38,081 nt of DNA from Chloroflexota bacterium (lineage in GTDB: Bacteria; Chloroflexota; Dehalococcoidia; DSTF01; RBG-16-68-14), in contig JACZYW010000003.1 of the NCBI GenBank assembly GCA_022570885.1, positions 1 through 38,081 of the forward strand, in the 5' to 3' direction. How positions within the stretch are numbered: position 1 is the stretch's first letter; each line of letters opens with the position of its first letter. The notes beneath the pieces are model-generated. The model was not told where the DNA came from and made no database searches. It saw nothing but the letters and a program-made list of their open reading frames with translations. This document shows, piece by piece, positions 1,454 to 21,998 of the stretch. A program made the translations under genes and the position numbers.

Positions 1454-1676
1454 CTCAGGTTACCTGCATGGAAGCGGGCGCTCGTTGCTAGCCGTCGGTG
1501 TCGGTGACCAGCAGCAAAACCGTGTACTTCCCTGGTAGCCTCGGCCTTTGTGATAGAATAGCGCCGTCCGAATCCGGCTGGTTCGGTCGGCGGGTGCTCG
1601 CCTTCAAAACGTGACCGCACGGGCCCGTCCGAACGATCTTCGGCCCGGATGCTCTGATGGGAGGAAAGAAGTCCCG

Positions 1677-3416
1677 ATGAAAGAGCAAACGAAGCAAGCT
1701 CAGGCAGGGTCGCTGCTGGACGTGCTCGGCTCAAGCGAATGGGACTCGTTGCGTCGCCATATGGCCCGCCATGCATACGAACCGGGTGATGTGCTCGTAC
1801 ACCAGGGAGCCGTGGAACCTGACTTTCAAGTCATCGTCGAGGGCGTGGCGTCGATATCGGCAACGAGCCCTCTTGGCCAGCACCTAGAGCTGGCACGACT
1901 CGGGCCCGGCGATTCCATCGGCGAGATGTCCTTGCTCACAGGCGAGCCGGCTTCGGCCCAGGTCACGGCCTGGACTCACCTAGAGGCATACGTGATTCCA
2001 GCTGCCAAACTGGTCACCCTAGACCCTGAGTGGCCACAACTTACGCAGGCGCTATCGGCTATCTTAGCCACCCGGCTCGGGAAGGCGAATGACAGGCTGC
2101 TGAGCATGCACACGGCCAAGGTCCAGGTTGTGTGTTGCTCGCCGTCCGATGTGTCCGCTCTGTCCCGGCTGCCTGGAGAGCTTGCTCAAGTGGCATCGGC
2201 ACGAGTGTTGGTGATGACGGTCGGGGACCATTTCGAAAGCACCGGCTTGTTGGACGCATTTGCAGGACGAAACGTCTCCGTGATCGCTATGGGTACGACT
2301 GACTCATCGGAACTGCGAAATCGGATTCACCTGCTTGAGCAGGAGTACGACCAGATCATTCTCTTCGGGGCTGAGGAAACCTTCCGAGAGCTGGAGGACG
2401 AGGTCCACTCCTTTCTGCGTGTTCAGCCAGAAGACCATCCTGACCAGCATGCAGGCGACGGATCGACCGTGGTCGTTACGGAGAAACCATGGACGCGAGC
2501 GGTGATCCAGCAGATCTCGTCAGCGTTGGACCAAACGGTAGTCGGCGTGCTACCGCCAGAGTCGCCGTCCCCCGGCCCTCGCGATCCAGTAGCGAAGCTG
2601 GCCCGCGTACTCGGCGGCCAGCAGGTTGGGATTGCCCTTGGCGCAGGTGGAGCGAAGGGGTTCGCTCATTTAGGCGTGCTACGGGCGCTGGAAGAGCTGG
2701 GCACTCCGATCGACGTGATCAGCGGCTGTAGCATCGGCGCTGCCATCGGTGCAGGATGGGCGGCGGGGCTGTCAGCCGACGAACTCGCGATAGCCGCGAA
2801 GCGGATCGGATCCCGCGCCATCCGGCCAACCATCCCGCTTCACTCGCTCCTCAGCAATAGGGGGATACGCGACGAACTCAAGCGCCTGGGTGCGGGCAAA
2901 CGGTTCGAGGACCTCGATATTCCCCTCGCACTGGTCGCTACGGACATCTACCGCCGCTGCGAAGTGACGTTCACCTCCGGAGTTGTGTGGCCAGCCATCC
3001 TGGCGAGCATGGCGATCCCGGGTATCTATCCGCCGATTCGAGCCAGGCGGAGCTATCTCGTAGACGGCGGAGTGCTGAGTCCAGTTCCGGCTCAGCAGGC
3101 ACGTGCCCTGGGGGCGGGTATTGTTATCGGCGTCAGACTGACGGGCAAGAGCACTTCGCCGACTGAAGAGCTCGACTTTACACCATCGCGACCGCTAGTA
3201 GCGGAGACGATGACCCGCAGCCTGGAGATCATGAACAATCGGATCTCCGAGTTCAGCAAGGACCAAGCAGACGTTACCATCGAGGTTTGCCTTGATGGCG
3301 GTGGGATAGGCGATTTCAACCGCGGCGACGAATACATGGAGGCCGGATACAAAGCGACTATGGAGGCTGCGGAGATGATTAGAGCGGTGCTGCCGTATCT
3401 GAAAGGCGTCGCGTGA
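1677..3416 (+). CDS. Cyclic-nucleotide-binding-domain / patatin-like phospholipase (NTE/RssA type)
   Basis: N-terminal cNMP fold (GDVLVHQGAVEPDFQVIVEG...GDSIGEMSLLTGEPASAQV); C-terminal GAGGAKGFAHLGVL oxyanion loop, GCSIGA (GxSxG) and DGG catalytic dyad motif. RBS gggaggaaag before ATG 1677. Confidence 0.88.
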   Translation: MKEQTKQAQAGSLLDVLGSSEWDSLRRHMARHAYEPGDVLVHQGAVEPDFQVIVEGVASISATSPLGQHLELARLGPGDSIGEMSLLTGEPASAQVTAWTHLEAYVIPAAKLVTLDPEWPQLTQALSAILATRLGKANDRLLSMHTAKVQVVCCSPSDVSALSRLPGELAQVASARVLVMTVGDHFESTGLLDAFAGRNVSVIAMGTTDSSELRNRIHLLEQEYDQIILFGAEETFRELEDEVHSFLRVQPEDHPDQHAGDGSTVVVTEKPWTRAVIQQISSALDQTVVGVLPPESPSPGPRDPVAKLARVLGGQQVGIALGAGGAKGFAHLGVLRALEELGTPIDVISGCSIGAAIGAGWAAGLSADELAIAAKRIGSRAIRPTIPLHSLLSNRGIRDELKRLGAGKRFEDLDIPLALVATDIYRRCEVTFTSGVVWPAILASMAIPGIYPPIRARRSYLVDGGVLSPVPAQQARALGAGIVIGVRLTGKSTSPTEELDFTPSRPLVAETMTRSLEIMNNRISEFSKDQADVTIEVCLDGGGIGDFNRGDEYMEAGYKATMEAAEMIRAVLPYLKGVA

Positions 3417-5854
3417 CCACTGCCGAAGAAGTCCCTGTTCAGTTGCTGAAGCACGTCCCGATCTTTTCGGCCTGCTCCGAGGAAGCGCTGGCGCTGCTTG
3501 CAGCCGTCCTGCAACCACAACAGGTGCAAGCCGGCGAGATCATCTTCAGCGAAGGTGACCCGGGTGACGAACTGTACATCATCGCCTCCGGCCACGCTCG
3601 GGTCGTCTCCGACGTGCACACTGAGAAGATAGTATTCGCACATCTTGGGCCCGGCGAGTTCTTCGGCGAGATGGCCCTCATTACCGGAGAACAGCGTTCC
3701 GCCGGGGTCATCGCGGCGACCGATGCTAAGCTCTGGCGCCTGCGTAAGGCGGACTTCCAGGCCATCCTGCAACAGCATCCGGAGATCGGCATCGAAATGA
3801 CCCGCATCCAAGGCGAGCGCGTCCGGCGGGGAAACGTTCAACGCTTTGAGAACGAAGCCTTCACGTTTCTCACCCTGACGCCAGAGCGGCCGGAAATCAC
3901 CATCGGCCGGTTGCCGGAGAACGATCTCGTGATCAACGATCCCCAGGTCGCTGGCGTACATGCGCGGGTCAGGAATACTGACGGGCGCTGGGTGATCTAT
4001 GACGAGGGCTCCGAGATAGGGACGTACGTGAACCGCCGTCGCGTCAAAGTCGCAGAGCTACAGGACGGCGACGAGATTCTCATCGCCGCTAACAAGATTT
4101 TCCTCGATGGCGTCCAGGTAAAGGGCTTTCGTGGCAGAGAAGGGATCCGCATCGACGCGCTGAATCTCTCCAAGGAGTTGAAAGACGGCCGCTGCATCCT
4201 GAACGATATCTCGCTAAGCATCGCACCCGGAGAGTTCGTGGCAGTCGTCGGCGGGAGCGGCGCCGGGAAGACGTCGCTCCTCCACGCGCTCAACGGCTTT
4301 TCGCCTGGCACGAGTGGCGCCGTCCGCTACAACGGAACAGACCTCTACGAGAACCAGGGCCTCTTTCGAACCGTGCTCGGCTATGTGCCCCAGGACGACA
4401 TCGTCCACGGCGAGCTGACGGTGGAACGCACGCTCTACTATACGGCCAAGCTGCGGCTGCCCAAGGACACAGGCACCGCTGAACTCGATGAGCGCATAGG
4501 AGAGGTGCTCGAAGCAGTCGGGCTCGCGCAACACCGCAAGACCGAAGTGCGCCGCCTCAGCGGAGGCCAGCGCAAGCGCACGAGCGTGGCGATCGAGCTA
4601 CTGGCGCGGCCGCGCGCACTCTACCTCGACGAGCCCACCTCTGGACTCGATCCGTCGCTGGAAGGTCGGATGATGACGCTGTTTCGAGACCTTTCCGACA
4701 GCGGCACCACGGTTGTGATGTCGACCCACGTGACCCAGAACCTGCGCATGTGCGACAGGCTCGCCTGGATGGCGCCGGGTGGGCATCTCGTCTTCTTCGG
4801 CTCACCGCCGGAAGCGCTGCGCCATTTCGGTGTTCAGGATTTCGGTGAGATCTACGGATTGCTCGAAACCCCCGAGGAGAGGGAGCGCTGGTCGGCCGCC
4901 TTCCTTGATTCGGTCGCCTACCGCGTAAACGTGAAAGAGCGCTTGGCGCCAGAGTCCGCAACAGCCGTCGAGACTGAGGACTCAGAGGAGGGAGTCGAGA
5001 GCCATCGGGAGGTGGAACCGGGCAGGAAGCAGAGCCCGCTACGCCAATGGTTCTGGCTCACGGCGCGTTATGCCGAGACGCTCGTTAGGGATGCTCCCAA
5101 CATGGCGCTCCTCGTAGTCCAAGCGCCGGTCATCGCTCTCGCTGTGCTGCTCTTATTCAACAGCGACATCTTCGGCGCTACGACGGAGGAGGGAGGCGAC
5201 GCGTTCCGTGCGCTTATGTCCCTGCACATCCTCACCACAGCGGCGATCTTCCTGGGCTCCTCGAACGCAGCACGCGAGATCACAAAGGAGTCGGCCATCT
5301 ATAGCCGCGAACGGCTGGTCAATCTGGCGGTCGTCCCGTACGTTATGTCCAAAGTGGTCGTGCTCTCGCTCCTCTGCCTATTCCAGGCGGCGGCGCTCGT
5401 CGGCATCTTCGCTCTTGCCGTGGATCTACCCGGGTCTGACCTGGAGCTCTATCCGAAGCTGTTCTCGGCCGTCCTGCTCACGCAGCTGGCCGGACTGAGC
5501 ATGGGGTTGTTAGTCTCCGCCCTTTCGGCGAACTCCGACCGGGCGATGGCTATCGTGCCGGTCCTGCTCATCCCACAGCTCATCTTCGCCGGCGCCCTCG
5601 TCCCACTCGACCACATGTTGGCGCCAGCGAAGGTCATCTCTCAGTTCATGATCAGCAAATGGGCGCTTCAGCTCGCAGGAAGCCTGACCGATCTCAGCGA
5701 ACGGTTCGTGGCCCAGTTCCCGAGCGTCTTCGCTGAGCCATATCGAAACGAACTGGAACCCACCGTTTGGCTACCTTGGGTCGTCTTGGCCGCCTTCACC
5801 GCCGTCATGCTTCTGGCCACCATCCTCGTGCAACTCCGCAAGGACGTTCACTAG
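3413..5854 (+). CDS. CNBD - FHA - ABC ATPase - ABC2 membrane (ABCG-like) fusion transporter
   Basis: CNBD (GEIIFSEGDPGDELYIIASG...GEFFGEMALITGEQRSAGV); FHA (ITIGRLPENDLVINDPQVAGVHARV); Walker A GGSGAGKTS; signature LSGGQRKRTSVA; Walker B ALYLDEPTSGLD; C-terminal hydrophobic ABC2-type domain. GTG start overlaps upstream stop by 4 nt (GTGA). Confidence 0.9.
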   Translation: MTTAEEVPVQLLKHVPIFSACSEEALALLAAVLQPQQVQAGEIIFSEGDPGDELYIIASGHARVVSDVHTEKIVFAHLGPGEFFGEMALITGEQRSAGVIAATDAKLWRLRKADFQAILQQHPEIGIEMTRIQGERVRRGNVQRFENEAFTFLTLTPERPEITIGRLPENDLVINDPQVAGVHARVRNTDGRWVIYDEGSEIGTYVNRRRVKVAELQDGDEILIAANKIFLDGVQVKGFRGREGIRIDALNLSKELKDGRCILNDISLSIAPGEFVAVVGGSGAGKTSLLHALNGFSPGTSGAVRYNGTDLYENQGLFRTVLGYVPQDDIVHGELTVERTLYYTAKLRLPKDTGTAELDERIGEVLEAVGLAQHRKTEVRRLSGGQRKRTSVAIELLARPRALYLDEPTSGLDPSLEGRMMTLFRDLSDSGTTVVMSTHVTQNLRMCDRLAWMAPGGHLVFFGSPPEALRHFGVQDFGEIYGLLETPEERERWSAAFLDSVAYRVNVKERLAPESATAVETEDSEEGVESHREVEPGRKQSPLRQWFWLTARYAETLVRDAPNMALLVVQAPVIALAVLLLFNSDIFGATTEEGGDAFRALMSLHILTTAAIFLGSSNAAREITKESAIYSRERLVNLAVVPYVMSKVVVLSLLCLFQAAALVGIFALAVDLPGSDLELYPKLFSAVLLTQLAGLSMGLLVSALSANSDRAMAIVPVLLIPQLIFAGALVPLDHMLAPAKVISQFMISKWALQLAGSLTDLSERFVAQFPSVFAEPYRNELEPTVWLPWVVLAAFTAVMLLATILVQLRKDVH

Positions 5855-6901: not shown

Positions 6902-6919
6902 GCATCATGGATATCGGTG

Positions 6920-8506
6920 ATGGCTGACGCGACGTTTGACGCTGTCATTATCGGTGCCGGGCACAACGGGATGGCGCTGGGCACCTACTTGGCGAGATGC
7001 GGCTGGGACGTGGCGATCTTTGAGAAGCGCGCCGAAGAGGGCGGGGGCCTCTGCACGGAGGAGCTCACCCGGCCCGGTTTTCTCCACAACGTTCACTGCA
7101 ACTATCACACGCTGGTTGGCGTCTGTCCTGTGTACGACGACCTAGGGCTCTACGACCATGGCCTGGAATACGTTCAGCCACCGGTGCAGATGGGCAGCGT
7201 GTTCCGCGATGGCACCGCTCTCACGGTGCATACGGATATCGACAAGACCTGTGCCTCCTTCGCCCGCTTCTCGGAAAAGGATGCGGAGACGTTCCGGCGG
7301 CTCCATGATGAGGTGAAGGGGTACCTTGACCTCATCTTAAGTACCTTGATGTACTCCCCGCCTATCCCGCTCGTCGATATTACGAAGGCGATGGTCGTTT
7401 GGCAGGTGGCAGACAAGTCGGAGTTCCTCAGTGTTCATCTGCGTAACAAGACGATTAGCGAGTTCTTGGACGAGCACTTCGAGAACGACAAAATCAAGGC
7501 GCAGCTCGCGTTCCAGGCGGCTATCTCCGGCTACGCCACGGACCGCAGAGGGCTGGCCGTCTCCTTCCCGCTGCTGGTGGGCAAGATGGACAACTGGCAC
7601 GTCTGCGTCGGCGGCTCCCACCAGCTAGCCCATTCATTGTGGGAGGCTTTTAGCCACGCTGGCGGAAGCATCTTCCTAAACACGCCGGTCGCCGGCATAT
7701 TGACCGAGAACGGGCGCAGCACCGGCGTCCGTCTCTACGACGGGAGCGAAGTGCGAGCGCGGCACGTCGTTGCCAGCACGATCGACCTCGAGCAGACCTT
7801 CCTGAAAATGCTTCCTCGCGAAAAGCTCGATCCGAAGCTGATCAGTCAGATCGAAAACTCCTCCCACATGGATTGGTCCTACTATAGCGTCCACCTCGCC
7901 ATGCGGGAGCCACCGCAGTATGCGGCGGCCGAGTTCGATCCGGATGTGCAGAACGCGTGGGTGCTGAACGTGGGATACGAGTCGCTAGAGGAGCTGAATG
8001 CAGACTGGCGGGCGGTGCGAGCTGGTAAGCTTCCCGATCCTCGGCCGAACTGCGCCGTCAACACACTCTTCGACCCCTCGGATGCGCCGGATGGCTTTTA
8101 CACCGGCCTCATGCGCCAGTTCGCTCCTATCGATATCGGCCGGGGCGGCATCGAGGCCTGGGATGAGATGGCCAATTCGTACGGCGAGCGTTGCATCGAT
8201 GCTTGGGCGGACTACGCACCTAACATTCGAGATGCCGTGATCGAATGGGTACCCTATACTCCTCTCGATATCTCGCGACGCATGGTGAACATGGTGCGTG
8301 GCGATTGGATGGGTGGCCTCGTCGATCTGGACAATCTGCTAACGGAGCGTCCCTGCCCAGAGCTCTCTCAGTACCGCACGCCGTTCAAAGGTCTCTACCT
8401 GTGCGGCGCCACCCAGCATCCGCACGGATTTATCACCTTTGCGCCGGGCTACAACGCCTTGCAAGTGATCGCGGAAGACTACGGGTTGGACCGATGGTGG
8501 CAGTAG
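6920..8506 (+). CDS. FAD-dependent oxidoreductase, phytoene-desaturase/PYROXD2-like
   Basis: N-terminal dinucleotide fold DAVIIGAGHNGMALGTYLARCGWDVAIFEKR; C-terminal GLYLCGATQHPHGFITFAPGYNAL. Confidence 0.85.
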   Translation: MADATFDAVIIGAGHNGMALGTYLARCGWDVAIFEKRAEEGGGLCTEELTRPGFLHNVHCNYHTLVGVCPVYDDLGLYDHGLEYVQPPVQMGSVFRDGTALTVHTDIDKTCASFARFSEKDAETFRRLHDEVKGYLDLILSTLMYSPPIPLVDITKAMVVWQVADKSEFLSVHLRNKTISEFLDEHFENDKIKAQLAFQAAISGYATDRRGLAVSFPLLVGKMDNWHVCVGGSHQLAHSLWEAFSHAGGSIFLNTPVAGILTENGRSTGVRLYDGSEVRARHVVASTIDLEQTFLKMLPREKLDPKLISQIENSSHMDWSYYSVHLAMREPPQYAAAEFDPDVQNAWVLNVGYESLEELNADWRAVRAGKLPDPRPNCAVNTLFDPSDAPDGFYTGLMRQFAPIDIGRGGIEAWDEMANSYGERCIDAWADYAPNIRDAVIEWVPYTPLDISRRMVNMVRGDWMGGLVDLDNLLTERPCPELSQYRTPFKGLYLCGATQHPHGFITFAPGYNALQVIAEDYGLDRWWQ

Positions 8507-9033
8507 TGAGCGCCGCTTCAGCGAACGAGGTCTTGCCCGTCACCCTCGCCGCGGGGGACGAGGCCAGCGGCCTGGCCCGCATCATCTGCCAGTACCTGGA
8601 ACAGCTCTTCGCCGATTCGCAGGAGAAACGAGACGAGGCCGCGAGGCTACGCGGCCATCTCGGTCTGCGTGCTCGCGAGGGCGATGTTGCCATCACCGTT
8701 GCTTTTACCGAGGACGGCGTCGCCGTAGAGGAGGGGCTGCGCGAACCGGATGCTGTCGTGAACGGAGAAGTTGAGTTCCTGATGCACGTGCTGGCCGGAC
8801 GGGCGAATCCCGCCTGGGAAGTCCTTAGAGGTACCGTGGCGTTCCAGCCACGGCCCCTCCGTCCGCTGTTTGGCTATCAGGCCTACCGCGTGATGCGTCT
8901 GCCGCACGTGCATCTATGGAGCGGGCTGCCACGCCCACCGGTTGGTCTCCTGGTGGGCACTGCAGTCTTGGTGAGTGCCGTAGTGCTGGCGCGGCGGCGG
9001 CGAGTGCGAGCTTCGGGTGGTGACGATGGCTGA
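8494..9033 (+). CDS. SCP2 sterol-carrier-like protein with C-terminal transmembrane tail
   Basis: EGDVAITVAFTEDGVAVEEGLREPDAVVNGEVEFLMHVLAGRANP (SCP2-like) then hydrophobic VGLLVGTAVLVSAVVLARRRR. Overlaps the preceding CDS by 13 nt. Confidence 0.6.
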   Translation: MVAVVSAASANEVLPVTLAAGDEASGLARIICQYLEQLFADSQEKRDEAARLRGHLGLRAREGDVAITVAFTEDGVAVEEGLREPDAVVNGEVEFLMHVLAGRANPAWEVLRGTVAFQPRPLRPLFGYQAYRVMRLPHVHLWSGLPRPPVGLLVGTAVLVSAVVLARRRRVRASGGDDG

Positions 9034-10639
9034 CGCAACCTTCGACGCGGTGATCATCGGCGCGGGACACAACGGGCTCTGCCTCGCGGCGTACTTGGCC
9101 AAGGCAGGCCTCTCCGTGGGCATCTTCGAACGCCGGCACGAGGACGGCGGCGGCGCCAACACGGAAGAGGCGACCGTCCCTGGGTTCCACCACAATCTCC
9201 ACGGCCAGTACATGGAGTTCATCGACTACATGCCCGTGTATCACGACTTCGAGCTTGAAAAGTTGGGCGCACGCATGATCTACCCGGAAGTGCAGCTCGG
9301 CATTACCTTCGCGGACGGCCGCCCACCCATCGTCATCTACCGGCCAGGCGCCGATCTCGACGAGAAGACCCGCAAGAGCATCGCCCACTACTCCAAGAAC
9401 GACGCTGATGTCTGGCTGGAGCTGAAACGCAAGGTCATGGAGCGTGACCGAACGATAGCCGCCACGCTCTACAGTCCGGCGGAAGCTGAGGACGATGAGC
9501 AAACGCCGGCGGCCATGATGAGCGCTGGGCTGTCCCTTTGGACAGACCTGGGCCTGGCGCCGAACGACATCGGCAAGGCGCCCAAGGTGCTTATCGACCG
9601 GCTCTTCGAATCGACGGAGATGCGTACCCTCCTCTACCGGCAATGCATCGAATGGGGTGCTAACGTGCACGCCGGAAACGGCTACGGATTCCTAATCTCC
9701 GTGCTCTGGCTGAGCGCCATCCACAAGATGTCGGTGGGCGGCACGCATACCCTGGCTCACGCCATGGCGAACGCCTGCATGAAGCAAGGCGTGTCCATTC
9801 GCTTTACCAAGCCGGTCGTGAAGATTGTGATGAAGAACGGGCGGGCGTCCGGCATCCAACTCAAGGACGGAACGGAGATCGAGGCAAGAAAGCTCGTCGC
9901 CTCCAACGTGGACCCAAGGCAGACGTTCGTCGATTTCATCGGCGAGGAGAACCTGACGTCCTTCCGGCGGGAGCGGCTGGCCCACTGGCGCTTCGGGCCG
10001 GAGCATGTGCTGGGCGTGCCATCGTTCGCGCTCCGCGAGGCGCCGAAGTACAAGTCGGCGAGGTGGAACCCGGACATCGACCGCTGCTTCTACACGCTGG
10101 TGGGCTTCGAGGATGAAGAGCAGATGTCAAACTACATTCTCCAGGCGTATGGCGGCGCGATACCGGATCGGCCGGGCGCCGGTACCTGGGTGAACTCTCT
10201 CTGGGACCCGACGCAGGCGCCGCCCGGTAAGCACGCGATGAACGGGTGGTTCTTCTTCCCGCGCGCCTCCTGTCTGTCGCCCGAGGAGTGGGACGAGGTG
10301 CGCGCCACATACAACGATCGCTTCCTCCAACTGTGGGGCGAATACGCGCCCAATATGACCCGCGAGAATGTGATCGCCGACCGGCTCTACACCGCATTCG
10401 ACATCGAGAAGAAGATCGGAATGCCAGAGGGAGACTTCTCCCACGGCCGCTCCGGCAGCGGCATGGGCGGCATCGTCGGCGGCTACCAGTACCGGACGGA
10501 GATCCCCGGCCTCTACCTCTGCGGCGCCTCGGCTGGCGGGGGCGGGATCAGCGCCGCACCCGGTTACAGCGCGTTCAAGGTGATCTGCAAGGATCTCAAG
10601 CTGCCCAAGGTCTGGCAGCAAGAGTATCGGGACTACTAA
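9026..10639 (+). CDS. FAD-dependent oxidoreductase, phytoene-desaturase/PYROXD2-like (paralogue of 6920-8506)
   Basis: MADATFDAVIIGAGHNGLCLAAYLAKAGLSVGIFERRHEDGGGANTEE; C-terminal GLYLCGASAGGGGISAAPGYSAFKV. Confidence 0.86.
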   Translation: MADATFDAVIIGAGHNGLCLAAYLAKAGLSVGIFERRHEDGGGANTEEATVPGFHHNLHGQYMEFIDYMPVYHDFELEKLGARMIYPEVQLGITFADGRPPIVIYRPGADLDEKTRKSIAHYSKNDADVWLELKRKVMERDRTIAATLYSPAEAEDDEQTPAAMMSAGLSLWTDLGLAPNDIGKAPKVLIDRLFESTEMRTLLYRQCIEWGANVHAGNGYGFLISVLWLSAIHKMSVGGTHTLAHAMANACMKQGVSIRFTKPVVKIVMKNGRASGIQLKDGTEIEARKLVASNVDPRQTFVDFIGEENLTSFRRERLAHWRFGPEHVLGVPSFALREAPKYKSARWNPDIDRCFYTLVGFEDEEQMSNYILQAYGGAIPDRPGAGTWVNSLWDPTQAPPGKHAMNGWFFFPRASCLSPEEWDEVRATYNDRFLQLWGEYAPNMTRENVIADRLYTAFDIEKKIGMPEGDFSHGRSGSGMGGIVGGYQYRTEIPGLYLCGASAGGGGISAAPGYSAFKVICKDLKLPKVWQQEYRDY

Positions 10640-10649
10640 GGAGCACGTC

Positions 10650-11141
10650 ATGCCCGCCATCTACACAGGACCGTGGTACGACAGCATGAAGGACATCCTC
10701 AACAGCAGCGACGCCGTGACGAAGAACGCGCCACGTGGTGTCTGGCACATCTTGGCCGAGATCCGAGGTGATGGTGCGTCGCCGTACCTCTCGGAAGACG
10801 AGGTGAAGCGCTTCGCCATCGTCCTCAACGACGGCAAGTGCGAAAGCTACGCGGAGCTGACGGAGCCGCCTCCACGCAAGGACTTCCAGTTCATTCTCGA
10901 GCTACCTGCTGTCCTCTTCGAGCGAATCGTCGCCAACCAAGCTGACCCCGTGGAGGCTGGCCTGAAAGGCGCCATCAAGATCATCGGGGACATGCGGGTG
11001 ATGATCCAAAACGCGGAGCTGGTGAAGATCATCTCGGAGATCTACCAGCAGGAGGTCGAGACAGAGTGGCCGAAGGGCATGCCACCGTATCCGGCCTTAG
11101 CGACGGCTCAGGCCGGGGAGTCGATCGGGGGCAGCGCATGA
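10650..11141 (+). CDS. SCP2 sterol-binding-domain-like protein
   Basis: FAIVLNDGKCESYAELTEPPPRKDFQFILELPAVLFERIVANQADPVEAGLKGAIKIIGD resembles an SCP2 fold (weak binding motif, 'G.ikI.GD' end). Confidence 0.6.
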   Translation: MPAIYTGPWYDSMKDILNSSDAVTKNAPRGVWHILAEIRGDGASPYLSEDEVKRFAIVLNDGKCESYAELTEPPPRKDFQFILELPAVLFERIVANQADPVEAGLKGAIKIIGDMRVMIQNAELVKIISEIYQQEVETEWPKGMPPYPALATAQAGESIGGSA

Positions 11142-13906
11142 CGTACGCAGGCCTACAGCTCCACGCCCTCGGCACGAAGGAAGCGGGAGAACGCGCTTCA
11201 TACGGTTCATGGCAGGACATCTACCGCGAGAAGTGGACCTGGGACCGGGTGGTGAAGGGAACCTGCAACCGGGCGGACTGCATCTCCGCCTGCTCGCTCA
11301 ACCTGTTCGTGAAAGACGGCATCGTCTGGCGGGAGGAGCAGAACCCGATCTTCGAGCAGACCAACGCCTCGGTCCCGGACTTTAACCCGCGCGGCTGCCA
11401 GAAGGGGATTTGCTACAGCGATCTGATGTACGACCCCTCTCGCATCAAGTACCCGCTGCGCCGCGTGGGCGAACGGGGCTCCGGCAAGTGGGAGCGCATT
11501 TCCTGGGACGAGGCGCTGACCGAGATCGCTGACAAGATCATCGATGTCTGTCTGGAAGACGGGCCGGAGAGCGTCGTCTACGACTTCGGCACGACGAACA
11601 TTGACTTTGGCCCGGGCACTCCGGCTGAGCAGCATCTCACCCGGCTCATAGGCACCACCACGCTGGACGAGTGGGCGGGCGTGGGCGACCTGCCCATGGG
11701 CGCCATCCAGACCTGGGGCCTCTTCAACGCTGACGGCACCTCCGACGACTGGTTCAACGCTGAGACGATCCTCGTTTGGTTGGGCAACCCCGTCTATACT
11801 CGCGTGCCGGACGTCCACTTCATGTGGGAGGCGCGCTACCACGGCACCAAGGTCGTCACCATCGCGCCGGACTACAACGCTACCGCCGTCCATTCCGATC
11901 TCTGGCTGAACCCGCGTGTCGGCACCGACGCCGCACTCGCCCTCGCCATGTGCCAGGTCATCGTAGAGGAAGGGCTGCTCAAGGAGCAGTACGTGCAGGA
12001 ACAGACAGACCTGCCGTTTCTGCTGCGCGAGGACACCCGCCGCTTCCTGCGCCAGTGCGATCTGGTCGAAGGCGGCAAAGAGGATGTCTTCTACGTCTGG
12101 GATCGGGCGTCGAACGAGCCGCGGGAGGCGCCGGGAACGGCCGGACAGGAGGAAGCGTTGATCGCCCTCGGCGATCTCGACCCGGCGCTCGAGGGTAAGT
12201 TCATCGTGAAGCTGGCCGATGGTCAACAGGTATCTGTGCGCCCTGTGTTTGCGCTCCTGCGGGAGCGGCTACGCGACTACACGCCAGAGCTGGCGGCGCA
12301 GATCACCGGCGTCAGCGCCAGCGTGATCCGTCGCCTGGCGCATCAGGTGGCCGAGAGCCGGGCGGTCATGGTCTTCTGCTCCTGGGGCTCCTGTAAGCAC
12401 TACCACATGGACCTCGTCCAGCGCTCGATTATCCTGCTGCTGGCGCTGACAGGCAACACCGGCAAGCGAGGCGCCGGCATGCGTATCGGCGCGTGGTGGA
12501 ACATGTCGCTCAGCTACGACCGCTCCATCGGCTCCCTGGCTGGGGGCGGCGAGCGGGCCAAGGTCCGGGACCTTGAGAAGATGATGAAGGCGCTGATGCG
12601 CGCCAATAGCTCTATGACGCCAGTAATGGTCTGGCTCTACGCGCATGACGAGGGGTATGCCAAGCTCGTCGATACGCCGGCCTACCACGATCCCGACCTC
12701 CCCCGCCCCATAAGCGAGTACATGCGCGAGGCGTTGGACAAGAACTGGATGCCGCTCTATCCGAAGGAAGGCAAAACGCCCCGAGTCTTCCTGTACACCG
12801 GCATGAACCCGCTCCGCCGCTGGCCCGCGCCGGACGTCATCCGCGAGAATCTCTGGGCGAAGCTGGAGCTGATCGTCACCTGGGAGTTCCGTATGTCCAG
12901 CTCGGCTATGTTCTCGGACATCATCCTGCCGGCAGCCGGCTGGCACGAGAAGTCCGGCGTGAAATTCTGCCAGAGCTATGTGCCGTACATCTGCGTGGGC
13001 GAGAAAGCGGTGGAGCCGCTCTACGAGTCGAAGAACGAGTTCGACATTATGGCCAACCTGGCAGCCACGCTCCAGAGGCGCGCGCAGGAGCGGGAGGAAG
13101 GCGTGTATACCGACGCCTTCGGAAACGAGCATGACCTGCGTGAGATCGCTCGCCTCTGGAGCTATGACGGCGAGTTCGGCGAGGGCGATGCGGAGAAGGC
13201 GTTGGAAGTCGCATTCGAGCTCTCGGAGCCGGTCGGCGACGCCTCATGGGCGGATGCGGCGCGCGCCGGCGCGGTACGGGTCAAAAGCACCGGCGGCTAC
13301 GGCCCTATCACTGCCATCACCAGCGATATGCGTGAAGACGAGACCGTCTACCCCTTCGCCTGGTTCGTCGAGGAGAAGGAGCCGTGGCCCACGCTCACCG
13401 GCCGCCAGCAGTTCTACATCGACCACCCGTGGTTCCTAGAGGTAGGCGAGGAGTTGCCGCTGCACAAGGAGCCGCCCCCTGCCGGTGGCAACTACCCGCT
13501 GCGGATGACCGGCGGGCACACCCGTTGGAGCATCCACTCCATCTGGCGCGCCAACCGCACGCTCCTCCGTCTTCAGCGCGGTGAGCCGGTGATGTACGTC
13601 AGCCCGCAGGACGCCGAAGCGCGCGGTCTCAAAGATCATGATCTGGCCCGGGTCCGGAATGATGTGGGCGGGTTCAAGGTTCGCGTCAAGCTGGCGGCTA
13701 GCATTCAGCCTGGGCAGGTGGTGATGTACCACGCCTGGGAGCCGTACCAGTTCGAAGACTGGATAGGCCAGCAAGCGGTCAACGCTTCGCCGTTGAAGCC
13801 GCTTCACCTGGTGGGCGATTATGTCCAGCTCCAGTACCGCTTCGCCCTGGCCCAGCCCAGCCACATCTCACGGGCGATGACGGTGGAGCTAGAGAAGGCA
13901 GACTGA
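11138..13906 (+). CDS. Molybdopterin oxidoreductase catalytic subunit alpha-1, type II DMSO reductase family
   Basis: TCNRADCISACSLNLFVKDGIVWREEQ...NPRGCQKG FS0-type motif; GDLPMGAIQTWG (region of the type-II Mo-ligating Asp), NPVYTRVPDVHF, APDYNATAVHSDLW; C-terminal molybdopterin dinucleotide-binding domain. ATGA overlap with upstream stop. Confidence 0.9.
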   Translation: MTYAGLQLHALGTKEAGERASYGSWQDIYREKWTWDRVVKGTCNRADCISACSLNLFVKDGIVWREEQNPIFEQTNASVPDFNPRGCQKGICYSDLMYDPSRIKYPLRRVGERGSGKWERISWDEALTEIADKIIDVCLEDGPESVVYDFGTTNIDFGPGTPAEQHLTRLIGTTTLDEWAGVGDLPMGAIQTWGLFNADGTSDDWFNAETILVWLGNPVYTRVPDVHFMWEARYHGTKVVTIAPDYNATAVHSDLWLNPRVGTDAALALAMCQVIVEEGLLKEQYVQEQTDLPFLLREDTRRFLRQCDLVEGGKEDVFYVWDRASNEPREAPGTAGQEEALIALGDLDPALEGKFIVKLADGQQVSVRPVFALLRERLRDYTPELAAQITGVSASVIRRLAHQVAESRAVMVFCSWGSCKHYHMDLVQRSIILLLALTGNTGKRGAGMRIGAWWNMSLSYDRSIGSLAGGGERAKVRDLEKMMKALMRANSSMTPVMVWLYAHDEGYAKLVDTPAYHDPDLPRPISEYMREALDKNWMPLYPKEGKTPRVFLYTGMNPLRRWPAPDVIRENLWAKLELIVTWEFRMSSSAMFSDIILPAAGWHEKSGVKFCQSYVPYICVGEKAVEPLYESKNEFDIMANLAATLQRRAQEREEGVYTDAFGNEHDLREIARLWSYDGEFGEGDAEKALEVAFELSEPVGDASWADAARAGAVRVKSTGGYGPITAITSDMREDETVYPFAWFVEEKEPWPTLTGRQQFYIDHPWFLEVGEELPLHKEPPPAGGNYPLRMTGGHTRWSIHSIWRANRTLLRLQRGEPVMYVSPQDAEARGLKDHDLARVRNDVGGFKVRVKLAASIQPGQVVMYHAWEPYQFEDWIGQQAVNASPLKPLHLVGDYVQLQYRFALAQPSHISRAMTVELEKAD

Positions 13907-13922: not shown

Positions 13923-14573
13923 ATGCTCGTAAAACGCGTCGAGGTGAACCGTGAGGACCTGTTGGATCCAACCAATGAGGCGTGGCGGCGGACCCGGGGA
14001 AGCAAGACGGTACTTTCGCCAATACCGTTGGCGATGCAGCCCGCGGAGTATGTGCGCGTCTCCTGGGAAGACCGCCCCTATGGCGTGGTGACCAGCATGA
14101 GAGTGACCGCCTTTCACAATGGTCAGGAGATCTTCTTTCGCCTTGTGTGGGACGACGCCACTGTGGACAAGCAGATCGCGGACATCGATCAGTTTGTGGA
14201 TGCCGCGGCCGTGCTATTCCCTGTGGTGCCCGATGCGCCCCTCATCGGCATGGGGGCCGAAGGCAAGCCCGTCAACGCCTGGCTCTGGCGCGCTGACTGG
14301 GAGCAACCGAAGAACGTGGTGGCGGAAGGGATGGGCACAACCAAACGTCGAGAGGATCCTGCCCTCGTCTCGAAAGCCAAGCACCAGCGTGGGCGTTGGG
14401 TGGTGGTCATCTCGCGTTCGTTGAACGGAAAGGACTCGCCGGCTGGAACGGTGAGATTGGAACCGGGCGCCACATCCAAGGTCGCGTTCGCCATCTGGCA
14501 GGGCTCCAACCAAGAGCGAGCTGGCATCAAGGCCTTCTCGCCGGCCTGGCAGGAGCTGGAGATCGAAGCGTAG
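13923..14573 (+). CDS. Ethylbenzene dehydrogenase gamma / DdhC-like heme-b-binding subunit
   Basis: AFHNGQEIFFRLVWDDATVDKQ...FVDAAAVLFPV...GMGAEGKPVNAWLWRADWEQ...VAFAIWQGSNQERAGIKAFSPAWQELEI, pattern of the EB_dh (PF09459-type) family. Confidence 0.8.
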   Translation: MLVKRVEVNREDLLDPTNEAWRRTRGSKTVLSPIPLAMQPAEYVRVSWEDRPYGVVTSMRVTAFHNGQEIFFRLVWDDATVDKQIADIDQFVDAAAVLFPVVPDAPLIGMGAEGKPVNAWLWRADWEQPKNVVAEGMGTTKRREDPALVSKAKHQRGRWVVVISRSLNGKDSPAGTVRLEPGATSKVAFAIWQGSNQERAGIKAFSPAWQELEIEA

Positions 14574-14590
14574 CAGAAAGCAGGGCTCTC

Positions 14591-15661
14591 ATGCCTGAGC
14601 AACAGATCGAGCGGCAATTAGCCTTCGTCTTTGACCTCAATAAATGTCTCGGCTGCCAGACGTGCACCATCTCGTGCAAGACGCTCTGGACCGACCAGCC
14701 CGGCATGGAGTATATGTGGTGGAACATCGTCAACACCATGCCTGGCCGGGGCACGCCGCGCGACCGCGACCAGTCCGGCGGCGGGTTCGACGCGCAGGGC
14801 AAAGCGCAAGCCGGCATCTTGCCGAGCGCGCGTGACTTCGGCGAGGCGTGGGAGTTCAACTACGACGAGGTATTCTACGGAGGGAAAGGCCAGTCCGCCT
14901 ACCTCCATCCCCGCCGTCCGGGCAGCAACGGCGATAGCGCGGACGAGGCGCCGGACTGGGGCCCCAATTGGGACGAGGACCAAGGCGCCGGGGAATACCC
15001 CAACAGCTACTACTTCTACCTACCCACCATCTGCATGCACTGCACCAACCCCGCCTGCATGGAGGCCTGTCCTCGCGAGGCGATCTTCAAACGCCAGGAA
15101 GACGGGATCGTCCTCATCGACGAGGAACGATGCTCCGGCTACCGCTTCTGCATGGAGGCCTGTCCTTACAAGCGGATCTACTTCAACCCTAAGCGGTTCA
15201 TCTCGCAGAAGTGCGTGATGTGCTTCGCCCGGCTGGAGCAGGGCGTGGCGCCCGCTTGCGTCCGCCAGTGCCCGGGGCGGGTCCGCCACTTCGGCTACCT
15301 GGACGACCAGGAGAGCGACGTCTACAAGCTAGTGAAGACGTGGAAGGTGGCGATACCCCTCCATCCCGAGTTCGGCACCCAACCCAACGTCTACTACGTG
15401 CCACCGCTCGCTCCGCCTCGTTTCGACGAGAACGGCGATATCGACGAGGAGAATCCGCGCATCCCCATGGAGTACCTCCGTTCGCTCTTCGGCCCCGAGG
15501 TGGATGGGGCGCTGGCCGTACTCAAACAGGAGATGGAGAAGACGCGCAGCGGCGAGCGATCAGAGCTGATGGACCTGCTCATTGCCTACCGCTGGCAGGA
15601 CATGTTCACGCCCTTTGTCGAAGACCCGGGCAAGCTGGATCGGTCACAGGTACGATCGTGA
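14591..15661 (+). CDS. 4-cluster ferredoxin-type beta subunit (NarH/EbdB-like) beta-1
   Basis: CLGCQTCTISC, CMHCTNPACMEACP, CSGYRFCMEACP (Tyr in place of one Cys, [3Fe-4S]-like), CVMCFARLEQGVAPACVRQCPGR. Confidence 0.92.
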   Translation: MPEQQIERQLAFVFDLNKCLGCQTCTISCKTLWTDQPGMEYMWWNIVNTMPGRGTPRDRDQSGGGFDAQGKAQAGILPSARDFGEAWEFNYDEVFYGGKGQSAYLHPRRPGSNGDSADEAPDWGPNWDEDQGAGEYPNSYYFYLPTICMHCTNPACMEACPREAIFKRQEDGIVLIDEERCSGYRFCMEACPYKRIYFNPKRFISQKCVMCFARLEQGVAPACVRQCPGRVRHFGYLDDQESDVYKLVKTWKVAIPLHPEFGTQPNVYYVPPLAPPRFDENGDIDEENPRIPMEYLRSLFGPEVDGALAVLKQEMEKTRSGERSELMDLLIAYRWQDMFTPFVEDPGKLDRSQVRS

Positions 15662-16338
15662 TGCAGATCGATGCTCTGACGACGCCAGAGGAAGAGACGG
15701 CCGCCGCCCGCAGCAGCCTCTACCGGCTTCTGGCCGATGGCTTCGTCTATCCAGATAAGGCCTGCTTCGCCGCCATCAAGGCGGGCCGCTATCGAGATGA
15801 CGCGCAGGGAATCTGTGACGCTCTTCCCTATGATCTGGAGCCCGCCTACGATGGCCTCGTCGCTTCCGGCACCTACATGGACTTTCAGGCCGAGTACCTG
15901 CGGTTGTTCGAGCTTGGCACAGGCATGCCGCCGTGCCCCCTCTTCAGCGGCCTGTTTCAGGGTGGCCGCAAGGCAGTGATGGAGGAGCTCACCCGCTTCT
16001 ACCACTTCTTCGGCCTCTCGATCGAGCAGGGCAGCGGCGAGCTGCCGGACCACATCACGACCGAGCTTGAGTTCATGCACTTTCTTACGTTCAAGGAGCT
16101 GATGGCGCTACGGCAGGGCGAGGACGCGGTTCCCTGCCGCCGGGCGCAGGCGGACTTCCTGGAACGGCAGCTCGTATCGTGGCTGCCGGCGCTGGAGGAG
16201 CGACTGCAGAAGCTGGAGCCGCCGACGTTCTACGTTGCGTTGGTCTGGCTGACGAGCGCCGTTACCCGGGCCGAACTCGATTCGCTCCGCCAGACACTGG
16301 AACGAACCGCCACGATCCCCCTGGAGGTACGGGCATGA
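15661..16338 (+). CDS. TorD/DmsD/NarJ-like molybdoenzyme assembly chaperone
   Basis: AARSSLYRLLADGFVYPDK...FQAEYLRLFELG...PPCPLFSGLF...DHITTELEFMHFL, typical of the family. ATG overlaps upstream TGA. Confidence 0.85.
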   Translation: MQIDALTTPEEETAAARSSLYRLLADGFVYPDKACFAAIKAGRYRDDAQGICDALPYDLEPAYDGLVASGTYMDFQAEYLRLFELGTGMPPCPLFSGLFQGGRKAVMEELTRFYHFFGLSIEQGSGELPDHITTELEFMHFLTFKELMALRQGEDAVPCRRAQADFLERQLVSWLPALEERLQKLEPPTFYVALVWLTSAVTRAELDSLRQTLERTATIPLEVRA

Positions 16339-17450
16339 CCGCTGCCATCTGCATCGTAGGAAGCAAGAACGCCGGAAAGACGTCGCTTATCGAGCGATTG
16401 TTGCCGGAGTTGATAGCCCGCGGCCGCCGGGTAGCCACCATCAAGCACGATGCCCATGACTTCGAGATCGACCTGCCCGGAAAGGACACATGGCGTCACC
16501 GCCAGGCTGGAAGTGGCACGACGATCATCGCCTCTTCTACCAAAGTCGCCATGGTGCGGCTGACGGAACGAGAGGCACCACTGGAGGAGCTGCTTCGTCT
16601 GGTGGACCGCTCCTACGACTTGGTGCTCGTCGAAGGTCTACGCCGTAGTCCGCTGCCGAAGATCCTCGTCCACCGATCGGAACTGGGGCTCGAGCCGCCC
16701 CATGTGCTCGGCGAGGTATGGGCCGTCGTCTCGAACGGCAAGACTGACGTCGCGCCAGCAGCGCCGCGGTTCCGGCCGGACGAGGTAGCTGCCCTGGCCG
16801 ACCTGATCGAGCAGCGGCTGCTGGGCGGGCCGTCGCAGACGCCGGCCTGGAATCTCCCGGCGCTGCTGGCGGAGGCTGGCCGGATGCACGGCCACCTCTG
16901 TCCGGGACAGGTGCTCGGCGTGCGCATGGCGATCCTGGGCTGCGAACGTCTCGGCATCTTCGACCCGAAGTTGTCGAAGCGGCTGATCGCGTTCGTCGAA
17001 ACTGACCGGTGCGGCGCTGACGCCGTCCAGACGGTCACCGGCTGCACACTGGGCAAGCGCACGCTGAAGTTCGTCGATTATGGCAAGCTGGCAGCGACCT
17101 TCCTCGATACCGAAACTGGCCGGGCGGTGCGGGTCGCTGCCCGCGAGAGCGCGCGGGGGGCGTCGGAAAGGTTCGCTCCAGAGGAGTTGGACCCGCATCA
17201 GGCGCAGCTTCGCGCCTACAAAGCCCTGCCCGACGACGAGCTGTTCGCCGTCGAAGAGGTGCGCGTCGCCCTCAGCGAGGCCGACTTGCCCGGGCGGCCA
17301 CGCCATCGCGTGGTGTGTGACTCATGTGGCGAAGAGGTGAACGACGGCCGCGACGTATCGGAGGGCGGCCGGACGCACTGCCGCGCCTGCGCAACCGGCG
17401 CATACTACGCGCCGGTCGGAGAGGCGCAACGAAAGCAGGTGCGGGCATGA
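16335..17450 (+). CDS. MobB - FmdE fusion protein (molybdopterin-guanine dinucleotide biosynthesis adaptor + FmdE/Zn-finger domain)
   Basis: N-term CIVGSKNAGKTSLIERLLPELIARGRRVATIKHDAHDFEID...DTWRHRQAGS; C-term MHGHLCPGQVLGVRMAILG ... VVCDSCGEEV...HCRACATGAYY. Confidence 0.85.
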   Translation: MTAAICIVGSKNAGKTSLIERLLPELIARGRRVATIKHDAHDFEIDLPGKDTWRHRQAGSGTTIIASSTKVAMVRLTEREAPLEELLRLVDRSYDLVLVEGLRRSPLPKILVHRSELGLEPPHVLGEVWAVVSNGKTDVAPAAPRFRPDEVAALADLIEQRLLGGPSQTPAWNLPALLAEAGRMHGHLCPGQVLGVRMAILGCERLGIFDPKLSKRLIAFVETDRCGADAVQTVTGCTLGKRTLKFVDYGKLAATFLDTETGRAVRVAARESARGASERFAPEELDPHQAQLRAYKALPDDELFAVEEVRVALSEADLPGRPRHRVVCDSCGEEVNDGRDVSEGGRTHCRACATGAYYAPVGEAQRKQVRA

Positions 17451-18106
17451 CAGGCGAAGTGATGGGCGCGGTGCTGGCCGGAGGCCGCGGCCGTCGCATC
17501 GGCGGTGACAAGCCGTCGCTGGAGGTGGGCGGGCAAACGATGGTGCGCCACGCCGTCGATGCTCTGCGTCTGGCAAGGCTAGATGTCACCTTGGTGCTGC
17601 GCGCTCATCAGCCGGTGCCACTCACTGCCCATACGTTTGCTGTCGTCCGAGACGAGGTGGAGAACGCCGGCCCCTTGGGCGGCCTACATGCCCTTCTGCG
17701 CTGGCTGCCGATGGAGTGGACGTTGGTCGTACCATGCGATCAGCCTTTCCTGACGCCGGATCTACTGCGCGGGCTGCTGGTGCAACCGAGGGGAGGCGTC
17801 GACGCCATCGTGGGGCGGCCAGCCAACCTGCCTGAGCCGCTGCCCGGCCTCTACCGCCACACTTGCCTTGGCGCTATCGAAGAGGCGCTAACCCAAGGCG
17901 AGCGCAGCCTCCGGGAGCTCCTCACCAAGCTCCGGCTAAGCGAAGTCCCTAAGACGACGCTCTGCCGGTGGGACCCCCGGCTCCTCTCGTATCTGAACGT
18001 TAACACCCCGGCCGACCTAGAGCGGGCGCGCGCCCTCGCCACGCCGGTCGCGCCGGTTAATAGCGAACACCGCGAGCTTCAAGAGGCCATGAACCATCGG
18101 AGGTGA
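17447..18106 (+). CDS. mobA: Molybdenum cofactor guanylyltransferase (MobA-like)
   Basis: GAVLAGGRGRRIGGDKPSLEVGG, NAGPLGGLHALL, LVVPCDQPFLTP, FNVNTPADLERA-like end (LNVNTPADLERA). Confidence 0.88.
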   Translation: MTGEVMGAVLAGGRGRRIGGDKPSLEVGGQTMVRHAVDALRLARLDVTLVLRAHQPVPLTAHTFAVVRDEVENAGPLGGLHALLRWLPMEWTLVVPCDQPFLTPDLLRGLLVQPRGGVDAIVGRPANLPEPLPGLYRHTCLGAIEEALTQGERSLRELLTKLRLSEVPKTTLCRWDPRLLSYLNVNTPADLERARALATPVAPVNSEHRELQEAMNHRR

Positions 18107-18108
18107 GC

Positions 18109-20954: not shown

Positions 20955-21998
20955 ATGGCAGCGAAACAATCACAGACTGCTCCACTGAAGCAGATAGCGA
21001 TGGTGTTCGACCTGAACAAGTGCATCGGCTGCCAGACCTGCTCGGTCGCCTGCAAGGTGCTCTGGACCCAAGAGGAGGGCGAGGAGTACCAGTGGTGGTG
21101 CACGGTCAACACGTTGCCTGGCCGCGGCCATCCCAAGGATTGGGAGCAGATGGGAGGCGGCTATGGTAGCGGTGGTTCCCCTGCAGCCGGACGTCTTCCA
21201 TCTCGAGCGGAGTTCGGCGGCGGCTGGGAATACAACTACGAGGAGGTCTACACCAGTAAGGAACACATCCCGCTCCGGCCTGTCGATAGCAACGGTACGA
21301 CCAGTTGGGGCCCCAACTGGGACGAGGATGAAGGTGGCGGCGAATACCCCAACAGCTACTTCTTCTACATGCCCCGGCTCTGCAACCACTGCACCCGTCC
21401 CGTCTGCGTGGAGGCGTGTCCTCGGGGCGCCATGTCCAAGCGTCCCAAGGACGGCATCGTCCTGCGAGACGAGGACGAATGTCGGGGGTACCGGTTCTGC
21501 ATGGAGGCCTGCCCCTACAAGAAGATCTACTTCAACCTGGCGCGACAGGTAAGCCAGCACTGCATCCTGTGCTTTCCCCGGCTGGAGAAGAACGTCGCGC
21601 CTGCCTGCGTGCGCCAGTGTCCCGGACGTCTCGTCTTTGTCGGATACCTGGACGACGAGGAGGGCCCGATCCACAAGCTGGTGAATCAGTGGCGGGTGGC
21701 ACTGCCCCTGCATCCCGAGTACGGCACCGGCGCGAACATCTTCTACATCCCGCCGCTCGCGCCGTACCGGCTCAACGAGGACAGCAGCCTGGACGAATCA
21801 ACGCCGCGCATCCCCATGGCGGAGCTGGAGCGGCTCTTCGGCCCGCGGGTGGGCTCGGCCCTGGACACGATGCGAACAGAGATGGAGAAGAAGCGACGCG
21901 GGGAGCCATCCGAGTTGATGGATACGCTCATCGTCTATCACTGGAACGAACTGCTGGGCCCCTGGACCCGAGACCCGGCGAGCATCCACTGGCGCTGA
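20955..21998 (+). CDS. 4-cluster ferredoxin-type beta subunit beta-2
   Basis: CIGCQTCSVAC, CNHCTRPVCVEACP, CRGYRFCMEACP, CILCFPRLEKNVAPACVRQCPGR; strongly similar to beta-1. Confidence 0.92.
   Translation: MAAKQSQTAPLKQIAMVFDLNKCIGCQTCSVACKVLWTQEEGEEYQWWCTVNTLPGRGHPKDWEQMGGGYGSGGSPAAGRLPSRAEFGGGWEYNYEEVYTSKEHIPLRPVDSNGTTSWGPNWDEDEGGGEYPNSYFFYMPRLCNHCTRPVCVEACPRGAMSKRPKDGIVLRDEDECRGYRFCMEACPYKKIYFNLARQVSQHCILCFPRLEKNVAPACVRQCPGRLVFVGYLDDEEGPIHKLVNQWRVALPLHPEYGTGANIFYIPPLAPYRLNEDSSLDESTPRIPMAELERLFGPRVGSALDTMRTEMEKKRRGEPSELMDTLIVYHWNELLGPWTRDPASIHWR

Follow-up and report, generated by a model that had tools for sequence, protein, structure and literature searches.

Two described systems in which flavoenzymes act on isoprenoids independently of oxygen appear, by analogy, to be the nearest to the FAD1-SCP1-FAD2-SCPb gene unit that is the subject of this article: the delta-24-steroid desaturase of Sterolibacterium denitrificans (PMC11061730) and the limonene dehydrogenase CtmAB of Castellaniella defragrans, a heteromer that carries out the oxygen-independent allylic oxidation of an isoprenoid (PMC4109377). 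Both are made of two different paralogous flavoproteins encoded by adjacent genes, 26–27% identical to each other, with the flavin attached covalently to the histidine of a conserved motif (PMC11061730; PMC4109377). The consensus of this motif is GF[L/R]x[N/S][T/L]HA (PMC11061730), and the published enzymes that bear it act on the sterol side chain or on limonene (PMC11061730; PMC4109377). In the anaerobic sterol pathway as published, a molybdenum C26 hydroxylase acts after three other enzymes (a molybdenum C25 hydroxylase, a phosphotransferase-like 25-hydroxysteroid kinase and a lyase), whose steps the flavin desaturase circumvents. How enzymes of the cell interior gain oxygenase-free access to sterols and triterpenoids is a largely open question; published assays dissolve the substrate with cyclodextrin (PMC11061730). 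The unit described here lies on the forward strand of a 38,081-nucleotide stretch of a Chloroflexota genome (contig JACZYW010000003.1, assembly GCA_022570885.1; hereafter the window), where two flavoprotein genes alternate with the genes of two different SCP2-fold proteins and lead directly into a molybdoenzyme operon. The reading that we hold to be probable, if only just, is that it encodes one two-subunit, oxygen-independent flavoenzyme of the CtmAB/delta-24-steroid-desaturase kind together with two lipid carriers, acting with ethylbenzene dehydrogenase (EBDH)-like molybdenum hydroxylases on a large isoprenoid.

Organization of the Four-Gene Unit

FAD1 (6917–8506; start GTG 6917 or ATG 6920) encodes a flavoprotein of the phytoene-desaturase/CrtO superfamily, recognized from its open reading frame and from PF01266 and PF01593 matches above cut-off in the Pfam scan, and is the proposed alpha-type subunit. 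It overlaps by 13 nt (8494–8506), as a first-pass annotation of the window had reported, with SCP1 (8494–9033), the gene of an SCP2-fold protein with a C-terminal transmembrane helix. The second flavoprotein gene, FAD2 (9026–10639; ATG 9026, GTG 9017 possible), identified by its reading frame, Pfam and its place in a tree, would supply the beta-type subunit. Counted from this ATG, it overlaps SCP1 by 8 nt, and a gap of 10 nt separates it from SCPb (10650–11141), which encodes a second, different SCP2-fold protein without a transmembrane helix. The alternation of flavoprotein and SCP2 genes is thus as first annotated, all of its elements being present. SCPb in turn overlaps the downstream gene MoA1 (start 11138) by 4 nt. 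The unit runs on in this way into genes for a molybdoenzyme, a point that the annotation missed. Promoter and terminator scans gave signals at chance level, and a tRNA search found none.

Two Ancient Paralogous Flavoproteins

FAD1 and FAD2 share the N-terminus MADATFDAVIIGAGHNG, their first 17 residues being identical, and they have similar C-terminal ends, GLYLCGATQHPHGFITFAPGY in FAD1 and GLYLCGASAGGGGISAAPGY in FAD2. They are 35% identical over 552 columns (E 7e-84), which bears out their earlier description as paralogues. In a tree of 62 flavoproteins each forms a single clade (support 100/100), and FAD2 has as its sister group (99/97) the partner subunits encoded in further tandem flavoprotein pairs from the same bacterial class. 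Judging from these sequences, the two are ancient paralogues, FAD2 being nearer to such partner subunits than to FAD1, and the split between the flavoprotein types predates both the locus and its association with SCP2. The carriers, for their part, show no detectable pairwise BLAST similarity (best chance match E 0.46; hhalign probability 21%). Tree and carriers together rule out a recent duplication of a FAD-SCP2 unit, and the "duplicated module" of the first-pass annotation has to be abandoned. What the locus contains is two adjacent, deeply diverged paralogous flavoprotein genes, as in the CtmAB/delta-24-desaturase family.

Both proteins carry a version of the covalent-flavin motif: GFLHNVHC in FAD1 (7076–7099; His60 numbered from GTG 6917, codon 7094–7096) and GFHHNLHG in FAD2 (9182–9205; His59, codon 9200–9202). 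Among orthologues whose sequences cover the site, the histidine is present in 30/30 FAD1 and 30/30 FAD2 proteins, and several FAD2 orthologues have the exact consensus (GFLHNLHA, GFRHNLHA). Plasmid records yielded distant single-gene relatives only; in three of these used as controls the histidine is absent twice and present once, so the motif discriminates without being exclusive. Its conservation suggests that the flavin is covalently bound in both FAD1 and FAD2.

Conservation and Gene Order

Thirty-four loci were compared, 32 from one FAD1 scan (Chloroflexota, Actinomycetota, mainly Acidimicrobiia, Myxococcota, Hydrogenedentota and Pseudomonadota) and two from a class-wide search with an SCPb alignment; the genome of locus L043 falls in the class of L051 and is not counted as an additional phylum. 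All four orthologues are present at 27 of the 34 loci, in at least four phyla, so the two-by-two set does recur in other genomes. Among the seven incomplete loci, L050, L060, L061 and L064 end at a contig edge, L062 has masked bases, and L051 and L055 truly have no adjoining SCP1. In L052, FAD2 is set apart from the rest. The four-gene combination is real, conserved and, to judge by the open-access papers searched, undescribed; that literature held nothing useful on SCP2 with phytoene-type enzymes and ethylbenzene dehydrogenase, on PYROXD2, or on SCP2 within gene clusters for sterols. In five Acidimicrobiia loci (L044, L046, L048, L056, L066) FAD2-SCPb-FAD1-SCP1 is immediately preceded by another tandem flavoprotein pair, making a six-gene cluster with two different pairs. 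In L037, from a metagenome-assembled genome, FAD2 is split over two frames (12104–13704), by a frameshift or an assembly error.

Does each flavoprotein then have a carrier of its own? The first-pass annotation had proposed that each flavoenzyme works with a dedicated carrier: the SCP2 folds are real and the two-by-two set is conserved, but the idea of two separate enzymes with private carriers is probably wrong. Two independent flavoenzymes acting on successive substrates, with the pairings FAD1-SCP1 and FAD2-SCPb, would account for SCP1 directly following FAD1, and SCPb FAD2, in both main orders: FAD1-SCP1-FAD2-SCPb, as in the window (11 loci), and the rotated FAD2-SCPb-FAD1-SCP1 (13 loci). 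They would also account for L043, where FAD1-SCP1 and FAD2-SCPb form two separate divergent pairs, and for the fact that SCP1 and SCPb are different proteins. However, each main order is a circular permutation of the other, so that neither can tell FAD-carrier pairings apart. The pairs are broken in L057 (SCPb-FAD1-FAD2-SCP1), and FAD1 is parted from SCP1 in L064 (FAD1-FAD2-gene-SCP1), where it directly precedes FAD2. Contig-end cases aside, FAD1 is always accompanied by FAD2, as expected of subunits, and the known relatives with the histidine motif are heteromers (PMC11061730). A fixed pairing is not proven by gene order, nor is one private carrier per flavoprotein established. Two independent enzymes are thus unlikely in our view, and a single heteromeric flavoenzyme is preferred.

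The SCP2 Proteins

The PF02036 (SCP2) cut-off of 21.3 bits is only narrowly passed by SCP1 (23.6) and SCPb (21.6), and for this reason the calls were tested further. Among orthologues, PF02036 matches 15/22 SCP1 and 22/22 SCPb sequences. AlphaFold2 models built from orthologue alignments have a mean pLDDT of 82.8 for SCP1 and 81.5 for SCPb, and their top Foldseek matches among solved structures are the SCP2 proteins 1wfr/2cx7 (E 3.0e-7 and 5.7e-9). Pfam, AlphaFold2 and Foldseek therefore agree, and the SCP2 assignments made at first reading stand up to structural comparison. SCP1 ends in a predicted membrane helix (8941–9024; AlphaFold2 helix 150–177, Kyte-Doolittle peak 2.12). Such a helix is predicted in 17/24 SCP1 sequences, the window's included, and not in SCPb.

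This anchor raises another possibility, that the SCP2 proteins, instead of carrying substrate, belong to the flavoenzyme complex as subunits for its assembly or for docking it to the membrane, comparable to UbiJ/UbiT in the quinone pathway. The frequency of the helix in SCP1 speaks in its favor, as do the presence of UbiJ among the closest Foldseek folds to SCP1 and a weak NCBIfam UbiT match (14.8 bits), whereas SCPb has no anchor and finds its best folds among SCP2 proteins. We consider a pure docking role quite unlikely. UbiT and UbiJ bind lipids themselves, so that docking and carriage overlap as explanations.

In Chloroflexota, genomes with an abundance of other tandem FAD pairs are mostly without SCP2 genes. 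This rules out SCP2 proteins as general companions of such pairs and means that the carriers go with the FAD1/FAD2 subfamily; taken with the CtmAB cluster for small, volatile limonene, which lists no SCP2 protein, it would fit, indirectly, carriers that are needed only for the substrate of this subfamily. SCP2-type genes of this kind also occur apart from the flavoprotein genes. An SCPb orthologue of 59% identity (L091, 8604–9188) from G162, a closed genome of 2.2 Mb, has no FAD1, FAD2 or SCP1 within ~10 kb, and in two genomes of one class weak SCP1-like and SCPb-like genes adjoin without flavoproteins (L094, 5301–6253; L095, 606–1525).

Linkage to Molybdoenzymes

By their matches to alpha, beta and gamma subunit models, the genes downstream of SCPb belong to the type II dimethyl sulfoxide (DMSO) reductase family. 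MoA1 (11138–13906), whose ATG overlaps the SCPb stop, encodes a molybdenum subunit that scores 970.6 bits with TIGR03479 (alpha), just below the cut-off of 984.75, and that is equally distant from perchlorate reductase and ethylbenzene dehydrogenase among Protein Data Bank matches (PcrA 595 bits, EbdA 586 bits). It is followed by an EB_dh/heme b gamma subunit (13923–14573; PF09459; TIGR03477 180.9 bits, cut-off 169.9) and by MoB1 (14588–15661), a four-cluster iron-sulfur beta subunit (TIGR03478 518.9 bits, cut-off 480.7). Further on come MoA2 (18103–20940), a second molybdenum subunit clearly nearer to ethylbenzene dehydrogenase (2ivf 814 vs. PcrA 505 bits), and MoB2 (20955–21998), a second iron-sulfur subunit (TIGR03478 478.5 bits). 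Neither MoA1 (629 bits) nor MoA2 (861) reaches the NCBIfam ethylbenzene dehydrogenase equivalog cut-off of 2000, and neither has an obvious twin-arginine (Tat) signal.

The association is not confined to the window. Type II DMSO-reductase genes lie beside the module in the window's family, in L039, L043, L048 (with MoA adjoining SCP1) and L059 (with MoA adjoining SCPb). At the genome level, a strong MoA1 homologue is found in 7/10 genomes with SCPb vs. 16/284 without in the window's Chloroflexota class (Fisher p 7e-7; 0.004 without the window's family), and in 6/9 genomes with the module vs. 0/189 without in the class of L051 (p 1e-9); these p-values are optimistic owing to shared descent within families. 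At other loci the neighbors of the module are catabolic, with acyl-CoA dehydrogenase-like and enoyl-CoA hydratase-like genes (recognized by eye), thiolases, an APH-type kinase and DUF7064/7065.

This setting bears on a biosynthetic or membrane-lipid maintenance role, such as carotenoid, polyprenol or quinone modification, which the phytoene-desaturase/CrtO superfamily of the flavoproteins would suit and which the occurrence of SCP2 domains in quinone synthesis would also allow. Against it stand the catabolic neighbors, a patchy distribution (~3–5% of genomes in two classes), and the fact that in several lineages the module is linked to EBDH-like molybdenum hydroxylases. The flavoproteins also score well under the curated NCBIfam cut-offs for CrtO and CrtI (crtI_fam 88 and 66 bits, cut-off 238), so that a carotenoid enzyme is rejected and a biosynthetic role in general seems improbable. 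As for chance juxtaposition, FAD oxidoreductases and SCP2 domains are both widespread, but the same four orthologues occur together, in several orders, at 27/34 loci and in at least four phyla, and coincidence is so implausible as to be already refuted.

Several other genes around the unit deserve mention. A reading frame at 15661–16200, between MoB1 and MobB, resembles a TorD/NarJ chaperone (its relative at L035, 13588–14331, matches PF02613). At 16179–17450 a single open reading frame has MobB (molybdopterin-guanine dinucleotide) fused to FmdE and a zinc-finger domain, and MobB-like genes are again found near the module in L039, L043 and L089. A third molybdenum subunit, MoA3 (22065–25064), has a twin-arginine signal-like N-terminus, unlike MoA1 and MoA2. 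The genomes of L040, L041, L059 and L062 (G296, G297, G315, G317) each hold many MoA1-type paralogues. Upstream of FAD1 (1611–5854) are a patatin-like phospholipase with a cyclic-nucleotide-binding domain and then an ABC transporter, apparently with cyclic-nucleotide and FHA regulatory domains.

A Proposed Mechanism and its Weighing

In the mechanism that we propose, FAD1 and FAD2 would be two different subunits of one heteromeric flavoenzyme, the flavin of each being attached covalently to the conserved N-terminal histidine. The enzyme would remove hydrogen from the hydrocarbon part of an isoprenoid, either by desaturation or by oxidation next to a double bond. Its substrate would be an isoprenoid that is large and does not dissolve in water, most plausibly a lipid resembling sterols, hopanoids or other triterpenoids, and would be moved from the membrane to the flavoenzyme by SCP1, usually membrane-anchored, and soluble SCPb acting as dedicated carriers. 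The carriers would probably then pass the product to the EBDH-like molybdenum hydroxylases MoA1/gamma/MoB1 and MoA2/MoB2, which would add water.

A number of observations weigh against this proposal. The likeness to CtmAB and the delta-24 desaturase is one of published motif and architecture, and the motifs depart from the consensus: V replaces T/L in FAD1, and in the window's FAD2 the L/R position is taken by H and the last one by G. FAD1 and FAD2 are also matched by the generic CrtO model (243 and 160 bits, cut-off 1000). SCP1 is missing at L051 and L055, and several carriers of the module have weak or no MoA1 matches. A Tat signal is present in the MoA of L059 and absent from MoA1, which leaves a direct hand-over within one compartment unproven. 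No ctmEF-like ferredoxin or ferredoxin reductase was seen among the scanned window neighbors. Finally, the window's genome (~91% complete) contains no 3-ketosteroid delta-1-dehydrogenase better than E 2.6e-6 (NF009478), and several other carriers of the module are likewise without a convincing one, although the enzyme is present in some (G003, G005, G296, G315, G317). A steroid substrate is therefore not supported in the window's genome, and a plain steroid-degradation label is rejected.

A wider version of the proposal is put forward tentatively, as something possible but not yet probable: several phyla would share a lipid-handling assembly for the oxygen-independent attack on membrane triterpenoids, one membrane-anchored and one soluble SCP2 carrier supplying its covalent-flavin heteromer and its molybdenum hydroxylase. 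If true, this would make it the first system to use dedicated sterol-carrier-type proteins for delivering water-insoluble isoprenoids to C-H-activating enzymes of the flavin and molybdenum kinds. The gene set of CtmAB/desaturase-type flavoenzyme, two SCP2 carriers and EBDH-like hydroxylases makes the substrate-access question testable, and would serve as a marker by which such metabolism can be recognized among uncultured Chloroflexota, Acidimicrobiia and Myxococcota.

Comparison with Known Systems

Like the delta-24-steroid desaturase, the locus has two adjacent genes for paralogous flavoproteins of ~57–63 kDa, a covalent-flavin histidine motif near the N-terminus of both, and what would be a pathway shared with molybdenum hydroxylases of the type II DMSO-reductase family (PMC11061730). 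Relatives of that enzyme have been reported in Acidimicrobiales and Deltaproteobacteria; its subunits are 26% identical, as against 35% for FAD1 and FAD2, and, unlike here, no SCP2 protein is mentioned (PMC11061730). CtmAB likewise has two FAD oxidoreductase-type subunits with the same histidine motif, but its substrate, limonene, is small and volatile, and its cluster lists ferredoxin, ferredoxin reductase and hypothetical genes, with no SCP2 or molybdoenzyme reported (PMC4109377). CrtO and CrtI belong to the same flavoprotein superfamily, yet FAD1 and FAD2 score far under their cut-offs and carry the covalent-flavin histidine motif. SCP1 and SCPb have the fold of the SCP2 family (PF02036; Thermus 1wfr/2cx7), with a weak sequence match (identity ~15–24%). 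Unlike the Thermus proteins, SCP1 has a C-terminal membrane helix, and SCP1 and SCPb each belong to a subfamily of their own that accompanies the flavoprotein pair. Directly downstream of the module are genes for the alpha, beta and heme b gamma subunits known from ethylbenzene dehydrogenase and steroid C25 dehydrogenase; the differences are that MoA1 is equally far from EbdA and PcrA, and that MoA1 and MoA2 are without an obvious Tat signal. Taken by analogy, the logic of the module's neighbors appears similar to that of the anaerobic sterol pathway.

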